Below are positions 21,855-53,822 of a stretch of 64,000 nucleotides of DNA, piece after piece. Positions within the stretch are counted from its first letter, which is position 1. Each line of letters opens with the position of its first letter. The notes beneath the pieces are model-generated. The model did not search any database. It had not been told where the DNA came from and saw only the letters and a list, made by a program, of their open reading frames with translations. The stretch is from Buttiauxella massiliensis (lineage in GTDB: Bacteria > Pseudomonadota > Gammaproteobacteria > Enterobacterales > Enterobacteriaceae): positions 124,001 to 188,000 of the forward strand of contig NZ_LR722656.1 of NCBI RefSeq assembly GCF_902500225.1. The letters run 5' to 3'. Both the position numbers and the translations under genes were made by a program.

Positions 21855-21977
21855 ACCTTCATACTTCAAGCTGCAGATGCGTCGACTGCACCCGTTCGCC
21901 CCAGTCACATAGTTATCTATGTTCCTGGGGACTTACGACTTTGTCGACTTTCTGCAACTCGAATTATTCGGTTTAAA
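21850..21977. repeat. ERIC element, copy 1 (erpA-yadS gap), divergent type
   Basis: A palindromic repeat of about 128 bp. Its ends TTTAAACC and GGTTTAAA are perfectly complementary. The core keeps the ERIC features: ACTTCAAGCTGCAG on the left, CTGCAACTCGAATTATT on the right, and a central hairpin CCCCAGTCACATAG, TTAT, CTATGTTCCTGGGG. The ERIC family consensus is recognisable, but the end sequence and the apical stem differ from the other copies by paired changes. It overlaps the erpA stop codon. Confidence 0.85.
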
Positions 21978-33791: not shown

Positions 33792-34669
<878 letters not shown>

Positions 34670-34705
34670 TAAGGTTCGCTCTTATTTGAGCTCTTATTAA
34701 CCAAG

Positions 34706-34831
34706 TATACCCTTTAGATTTCGAGTTGCAGCCAGGCGGCAAGCTCAAGAATCCCCAGGAGCTTACTTAGGTAAGTGACTGGGTGAGTGAGTACAGCCAA
34801 CGCCCCTGCGGCTAGAAAGATAACGGGTATA
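34706..34831. repeat. ERIC element, copy 2 (inside rpsB-tsf operon), classical type
   Basis: A 126-bp element with ends TATACCC and GGGTATA. Its core contains AAGTGACTGGG and, on the other strand, GTAAGCTCCTGGGGATTC, the segments on which the standard ERIC-PCR primers are based, so the family is clear. It is in the opposite orientation to the other three copies and lies between two essential co-transcribed genes. Confidence 0.93.
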
Positions 34832-34848
34832 TTGAATAGTTTGGTTAG

Positions 34849-34872
34849 GGGGCCTGTACAGGCCCCTTTTTA
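34849..34872 (+). terminator. Intra-operon terminator/attenuator between rpsB and tsf
   Basis: An 18-nt perfect palindrome, GGGGCCTGTACAGGCCCC, followed by TTTTTATTTT. It lies between rpsB and tsf and would let only part of the transcripts reach tsf, or tsf may also have its own promoter. An internal terminator is known at the same place in E. coli as I recall. Confidence 0.85.
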
Positions 34873-34944
34873 TTTTGAGCCAGGGTTCGTCTATTCCGTG
34901 GACCAGGGCTTATCTCTCTCTACGAGATAACCGAGGATTTTAGA

Positions 34945-35796
34945 ATGGCTGATATTACTGCTGCTCTGGTAAAAGAACTGCGTGAACGTACTGGCGCAGG
35001 CATGATGGATTGCAAAAAGTCACTGACTGAAGCTAATGGCGACATCGAGCTGGCAATCGAAAACATGCGTAAGTCTGGTGCGATCAAAGCGGCTAAGAAA
35101 GCAGGCAACGTAGCTGCTGACGGCGTGATCAAAACTAAGATCGCAGACGGCTACGCTGTGATTCTGGAAGTAAACTGCCAGACTGACTTCGTTGCTAAAG
35201 ATGGTGGTTTCCAGGCATTTGCTGACAAAGTGCTGGACGCTGCTGCTGCAGGCAAAGTTACTGACATCGAAGTACTGAAAGCACAGTTCGAAGAAGAGCG
35301 TGTTGCACTGGTTGCTAAAATCGGTGAGAACATCAACATTCGTCGTGTTGCTGTTCTGGAAGGTGATGTTCTGGGTAGCTACCTGCACGGTGCTCGCATC
35401 GGTGTTGTTGTTGCAGCTAAAGGCGCTGACGAAGAGCTGGTTAAGCAAATCGCTATGCACGTTGCTGCAAGCAAGCCAGAATTCGTTAAGCCAGAAGACG
35501 TGTCTGCAGAAGTTGTTGAGAAAGAGTACCAGGTTCAGCTGGACATCGCTATGCAGTCTGGCAAGCCGAAAGAAATCGCAGAGAAAATGGTTGAAGGCCG
35601 TATGAAGAAATTCACCGGTGAAGTTTCTCTAACTGGTCAGCCTTTCGTTATCGACCCAAGCAAAACTGTTGGTCAGTTGCTGAAAGAGCACAATGCTGAC
35701 GTAACTGGCTTCATCCGCTTTGAAGTGGGCGAAGGCATCCAGAAAGTTGAGACTGACTTCGCAGCAGAAGTTGCTGCAATGTCCAAGCAGTCTTAA
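34945..35796 (+). CDS. tsf: Elongation factor Ts
   Basis: Nucleotide exchange factor for EF-Tu. 283 residues; N-terminal UBA-like domain [20 protein letters not shown], the TDFV motif (about residues 80-83) that contacts the EF-Tu magnesium site, and the core repeats. GAGGA lies upstream of the ATG. Codon bias is strong. Separated from rpsB by 275 bp holding an ERIC copy and a terminator. Confidence 0.98.
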
Positions 35797-37461: not shown

Positions 37462-37587
<126 letters not shown>

Positions 37588-53695: not shown

Positions 53696-53822
53696 TATAC
53701 CCATCATCCTTCAAGCTGCAGGGGCGTTGGCTGCACTCACTTACCCGAATCACTTACTTTAGTAAGCTCATCGGGATAAGCTCCCTGGCCGCCTACCTGC
53801 AACTCGAATGCTAACGGGTATA
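53696..53822. repeat. ERIC element, copy 4 (accA-ldcC gap), variant type
   Basis: 127 bp with ends TATACCC and GGGTATA, left arm CCTTCAAGCTGCAG, right arm CTGCAACTCGAATG, and central hairpin CCCGAATCACTTACT, TT, AGTAAGCTCATCGGG. Same CCCGA/TCGGG type as copy 3 and same orientation. It begins at the base after the accA stop codon. Confidence 0.92.

Follow-up and report, generated by a model that had tools for sequence, protein, structure and literature searches.

A probably tolerated ERIC insertion between rpsB and tsf

Two genes on the forward strand frame the locus, which lies in the window, by which we mean the whole stretch of 64,000 nucleotides that was analysed: rpsB for ribosomal protein S2 (33944-34669, an ORF of 241 aa with its stop codon at 34667-34669) and tsf for elongation factor Ts (34945-35796, an ORF of 283 aa), followed by an ORF matching pyrH. 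Gene names were assigned by match to annotated E. coli, where rpsB and tsf are found at the matching places. Upstream of rpsB, in its leader, the forward strand matches the t44 RNA family at 33828-33915 (Rfam RF00127, 90 bits); uS2 autoregulation is described as working via the rpsB 5' untranslated region and not the rpsB-tsf gap (PMC10931766). The gap itself is 275 bp long, in a genome with a GC content near 0.51 in the stretches read, and three hairpins are predicted on its forward strand. HP1 (34667-34699, TAATAAG..GCTC..GAGC..CTTATTA) includes the rpsB stop codon and was seen in the minimum free energy (MFE) fold of the filled fragment. HP2 (34699-34846) is closed by AACCA at 34699-34703 pairing with TGGTT at 34842-34846, as indicated by pairing probabilities and the whole-gap MFE fold. 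HP3 (34847-34868) has nine pairs and recurs in the aligned E. coli and genus gaps; with its GC-rich stem and the T tract that follows, it has the make-up of an intrinsic terminator between rpsB and tsf. A complete ERIC of 126 bp (34706-34831, forward strand) occupies the loop of HP2, starting 37 bp downstream of the rpsB stop codon and ending 15 bases before the terminator stem, a distance that the first-pass annotation had given as 17 bp. A consensus scan of 34600-34960 returned no promoter-like site, and a new promoter there was rejected.

The element starts with TATACCC and ends with GGGTATA, has TA at both ends, and aligned over the full length of the ERIC profile (positions 1-126, 131 bits; the profile was built from nine copies, this one included). 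This confirms the claim that a complete 126-bp ERIC separates the rpsB stop from the terminator preceding tsf. Core and termini of the family are present, at a length that fits the usual one of about 127 bp, and comparison of filled and empty sites in 12 genus genomes revealed an insertion at TA with duplication of the TA. Many further copies are dispersed in the genome: all 40 scored candidates of a DNA search matched the element, the other 39 with 76-85% identity, and this count is a lower bound, as 130 candidates appeared at first look and 40 were scored. Profile matches revealed three other ERICs in the window, all on the reverse strand and in B orientation, one 79 bp after its upstream gene (37462-37587) and two 2 bp after a stop codon (53697-53822 and 21856-21969). 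Among the four ERICs found, the rpsB-tsf copy is the only one on the forward strand, as had been claimed, and it is also alone in its orientation relative to its own upstream gene. It is an ordinary ERIC with nothing different in the element itself, and the location is the point of interest. To our knowledge, the transposase that would mobilise ERICs has not been assigned.

Folding of the transcribed strand predicted the single long hairpin of an ERIC RNA, one extended stem with an MFE of -57.7 kcal/mol vs -42.7 kcal/mol for the other strand. The G-U-aided pairing proposed for the transcribed direction was therefore reproduced, yet it is shared by all 46 distinct copies examined in the genome (the window plus regions fetched around genome matches, L209-L247), each of which folds better on the same strand (means -56.3 vs -44.0). 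On the consensus structure 189 G-U cells stand against 2 A-C cells, and on the structure of the window copy the ratio is 147 to 47. These predictions mark the strand asymmetry of folding as a property of the ERIC family here, and as all 46 copies share the strand preference, the idea that the G-U pairs have a significance peculiar to the rpsB-tsf copy was rejected.

In the MFE fold of the empty E. coli allele, HP1 spans the stop codon, HP2 pairs ACCAG with TTTGGT and HP3 forms the terminator, and the window gap has elements corresponding to each of these three hairpins. HP2 is paired around the ERIC in the whole-gap MFE fold and is unpaired in that of a shorter, 238-base filled fragment; in the ensemble of this fragment its pairing probability dropped to 0.47, from 0.93 when the ERIC was removed in silico. 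Such a loss of HP2, or an added pause, might alter terminator read-through, all the more as the ERIC ends 15 bases before the terminator. We regard this as very unlikely, since the predicted pairing probability of HP3 in the same fragment is 0.859 with and without the ERIC, which also counts against the effect on the following terminator put forward in the first-pass annotation. Furthermore, E. coli K-12 strain HMS174 carries an Escherichia-type ERIC in this gap, and transcripts spanning rpsB-tsf-pyrH-frr are reported for E. coli (PMC6131387).

Pectobacterium was rejected as the source, since the genome gave no match to pectate lyase (PF00544), and a search of a plasmid collection returned 24 records, all distant, one at 80-90% and 23 at 60-80% identity. 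When 12 genus genomes were searched for the site, nine had an empty TA site reading ACCAGG-TA-TTGAA, two (G000, the genome of the window, and G003) had the same insertion with TA on both sides, and one (G009) had a shortened, core-deleted ERIC at a different TA, 11 bp nearer rpsB. The ERIC copies of G000 and G003 differ at 8 of 126 bases, a divergence of 6.3% that refers to this single genome pair, and the same pair differs at 16 of 242 third codon positions in rpsB and at 25 of 284 in tsf; over the 152 bases that align in the remainder of the rpsB-tsf gap it shows 3 differences, plus a single alignment gap of one base. As the divergence of the element resembles that of third codon positions in this pair, the window ERIC is without sign of constraint, and judged from these sequences the insertion appears to be young and dispensable. 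Its absence from nine of the 12 genomes and its rate of change speak against the functional reading of the first-pass annotation, in which the element changes the ratio of S2 to EF-Ts.

Simple ORF calls around the 46 copies gave 49 relations of an ERIC to an upstream stop codon, with some copies counting for two genes. The 15 that fall between -5 and +6 bp of the stop all run opposite to the rpsB copy; at 7-60 bp 13 relations are like it and 8 reversed. Inspection of the insertion sites by eye, readable for 34 of the 46 copies, showed flanking TA and A+T-rich sequence with no strong asymmetry, and an asymmetric target site was discarded as the cause of the orientation bias. Elements adjoining stop codons are said in a 2005 abstract to form the 'B' class, and as the rpsB copy faces the opposite way it would belong to the 'A' class.

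This assignment bears on RNA processing, for which precedents exist: according to two reviews, the presence of an ERIC in Yersinia reduces the level of the transcript upstream of it by means of an RNase E site (PMC2229807, PMC10969869), with orientation being crucial for the destabilisation (PMC2229807). The destabilising Yersinia elements lie in B orientation at or next to a stop codon, an arrangement that the rpsB copy does not share, and the published effect would belong to the orientation opposite to it. Given the putative A orientation and the orientation dependence, destabilisation by RNase E should not apply at rpsB-tsf. That the element nevertheless destabilises rpsB mRNA by way of an RNase E site within the terminal repeat, like B-oriented Yersinia ERICs, would agree with the reports of destabilising ERICs at gene 3' ends. 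It is hardly credible here, as the orientation of the rpsB copy occurs in none of the 15 near-stop relations and as 37 bp after the stop should be beyond the reach of a terminating ribosome. Of the regulatory reading given at first pass, the large transcribed hairpin is thus predicted and altered mRNA levels have their Yersinia precedent, the reported RNase E destabilisation would belong to the opposite orientation, and the S2:EF-Ts ratio may be affected.

The gap was compared across relatives in a family sample of 149 genomes, nearly one per genus, 147 of them with a tsf match. The 70 gaps extracted (30 from returned loci and 40 fetched) represent 70 of the 73 best tsf matches, leaving out G024, G117 and G143 as well as 74 matches of lower score, many of which come from small genomes. 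The ERIC profile was matched strongly by seven of these gaps, the window's own included, and weakly by one (g18), each scoring highest when read the same way as the window copy. A length pattern revealed a filled rpsB-tsf gap in at least 24 of 392 family genomes and 10 of 154 genera, these counts being lower bounds because a gap is detected only if it has both anchors, as 46 of the 70 gaps and 22 of the 30 loci do. Strong ERIC matches account for 20 of the 24 filled gaps and weak ones (g18) for three, again all in the same orientation; the remaining one (g50) holds a different long hairpin. As a control for occupancy, a long tsf-pyrH gap was found in 2 of 392 genomes, one with a weak ERIC match (g122), which is likewise a lower bound, as the anchors occur in 20 of the 30 loci and the cases in G002 and g18 were missed. 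Among the 30 loci spanning both gaps, an ERIC was present at profile threshold in rpsB-tsf in six and in tsf-pyrH in none; the weak g122 fragment, detected in a later and more sensitive scan, sits in one of these 30 genomes.

A pattern search for insertions after the terminator matched 6 of 392 genomes and is insensitive, since it missed the known g32 case (G042). Three of these matches (genus g75) have an element of the form TATACCC..GGGTATA in which no ERIC core is convincing, and the other three are unlike the rpsB-tsf gap as far as the matched sequence shown can tell. Short elements with such ends and no convincing core lie between terminator and tsf at L123, L130 and L251-L253; they possibly represent another small mobile family or decayed ERICs. 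A hairpin of about 120 nt that the profile did not recognise as ERIC lies in the HP1 loop at L185 (genus g50) and L037 (an uncultured Enterobacteriaceae assembly). On the other side of rpsB, ERIC insertions close to the promoter and leader region of rpsB, in the interval that separates it from map, were seen at L189-L191, L204 and L142, the last of these being an ERIC upstream of rpsB.

Judged from position, flanks and ends rather than from a tree, the rpsB-tsf gap would have received about six independent ERIC insertions in this one family, all in the same orientation. They comprise the window type in the HP2 loop, the copy of G009 between HP1 and HP2, an Escherichia type (g139, g45, g71, g42, g3 and probably g18) in the HP1 loop with altered ends (CTCCCCC/GGGGGAG in K-12), a g115 copy in the HP1 loop with TATACCC-type ends, a g23 copy between HP1 and HP2, and a g32 copy after the terminator. 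The three ERICs or pieces found in tsf-pyrH (L010:2505-2602, L206:2675-2792 and L249:1674-1736), from G002 of the genus (partial), g18 and the weak g122 fragment, are all reversed, i.e. in B orientation. Fisher's exact test on 6:0 vs 0:3 yields 1/84, or 1/56 if the Escherichia-type and g115 events are one, calculated by hand on small counts and post hoc.

In E. coli the site (L032:768-927, L033:768-806) is dimorphic: a probe for the filled allele of K-12 strain HMS174 matched 4062 of 5426 genomes and an empty-junction probe 1311 of 5426, leaving 53 genomes with neither if both sets are disjoint. The empty allele occurs, for instance, in EC958. As the two alleles differ in their left flank, taking the element out of the filled form would not by itself give the empty one. 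Covariation was analysed in 18 sequences (L031, L032, L187, L188, L192-L197 and L201-L208) on a structure taken from K-12. In this Escherichia-type ERIC 92.6% of cells pair vs 89.9% in shuffles and 37-47% when slid, and 23 cells are changed on both sides vs a shuffled mean of 7.9 (a value that none of 500 shuffles reached) and no more than 9 in the slid versions. Eight pairs contain a change on both sides vs 4.6 in shuffles (7 of 500), further pair types are not raised (412 of 500 shuffles), and there are 90 G-U vs 17 A-C cells, with many of the G-U cells found family-wide. Because the structure comes from one member of the set and the sequences are related, the covariation is suggestive and not proof; the shuffle control ignores relatedness, and if some of the copies are separate insertions, variation within the ERIC family could mimic covariation. 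As the compensatory changes extend across genera, the Escherichia-type hairpin may be kept by selection, and together with the shared orientation they are a hint that orientation or hairpin matters.

A working role would be that of a 3' barrier, the hairpin shielding terminator-ended rpsB mRNA from 3'-to-5' decay and raising S2 relative to EF-Ts, so that only this orientation is kept. The stable fold of the transcribed strand, the roughly six putative independent insertions facing one way, the compensatory changes and the excess of long rpsB-tsf over long tsf-pyrH gaps all argue for it. We consider it unlikely, because the window copy diverges like third codon positions, E. coli carries both alleles and the terminator hairpin is already such a barrier; moreover, the covariation is open to the effects of relatedness described above, and further pair types are not raised. 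A somewhat broader proposal, which we put forward tentatively and rather doubt, is that rpsB-tsf is, throughout the family, a recurrent, orientation-filtered landing place for ERICs, whose survivors fold strongly as transcribed and spare the flanking hairpins, and where the Escherichia copy has been co-opted to tune S2 vs EF-Ts while E. coli still has filled and empty forms.

For the window copy itself, a tolerated recent ERIC insertion in A orientation with a small or nil effect on S2:EF-Ts is the probable explanation. A non-autonomous mobile ERIC has inserted, apparently recently, at a TA in the HP2 loop between rpsB and the terminator; presumably transcribed with the operon in this host, it would fold on itself and lengthen a pre-existing hairpin. 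Neither the end of rpsB at its stop codon nor the terminator nor the ribosome-binding site of tsf is disrupted, and the orientation is the one with the best-folding RNA and apparently not the one reported to expose an RNase E site, for which reasons the insertion should be tolerated. Any effect would more likely be a mild protection of the rpsB 3' end than a destabilisation. Against toleration stand the same-facing insertions vs the three reversed ones after tsf, the compensatory changes and the lowered HP2 pairing. The effect of the window ERIC is probably slight and the element probably tolerated rather than needed, a mild influence on S2:EF-Ts being the most that the best reading allows.

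The surrounding pattern of repeated insertion, one orientation and two E. coli alleles holds more interest than the copy in the window. ERICs were already known around 1990. The gap combines several insertions, apparently independent, next to one and the same pair of essential genes with a common two-allele polymorphism in E. coli, which amounts to a natural experiment and makes ERIC function in a ribosomal operon testable in ordinary laboratory strains. No report of an ERIC in the rpsB-tsf gap was found among the open-access papers searched, at the level of titles and abstract starts; Wilson and Sharp 2006, which lies outside this search, may list the E. coli copy.

The window copy resembles the ERIC, IRU or RU-1 elements of Enterobacterales, reportedly described by Hulton in 1991, De Gregorio in 2005 and Wilson and Sharp in 2006, in length, TA termini, terminal inverted repeats, long single hairpin, copy number and intergenic place. 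The Correia or NEMIS elements of Neisseria are likewise transcribed mobile inverted repeats able to alter mRNA decay (PMC2229807, PMC10969869). They differ in belonging to another family and in being cut by another enzyme, RNase III. The ERIC in the E. coli K-12 gap (HMS174, L032) shares gap, orientation and family with the window copy; it would have inserted separately, some 20 bp closer to rpsB and inside the loop of HP1, and has non-canonical ends and compensatory changes across related genera.
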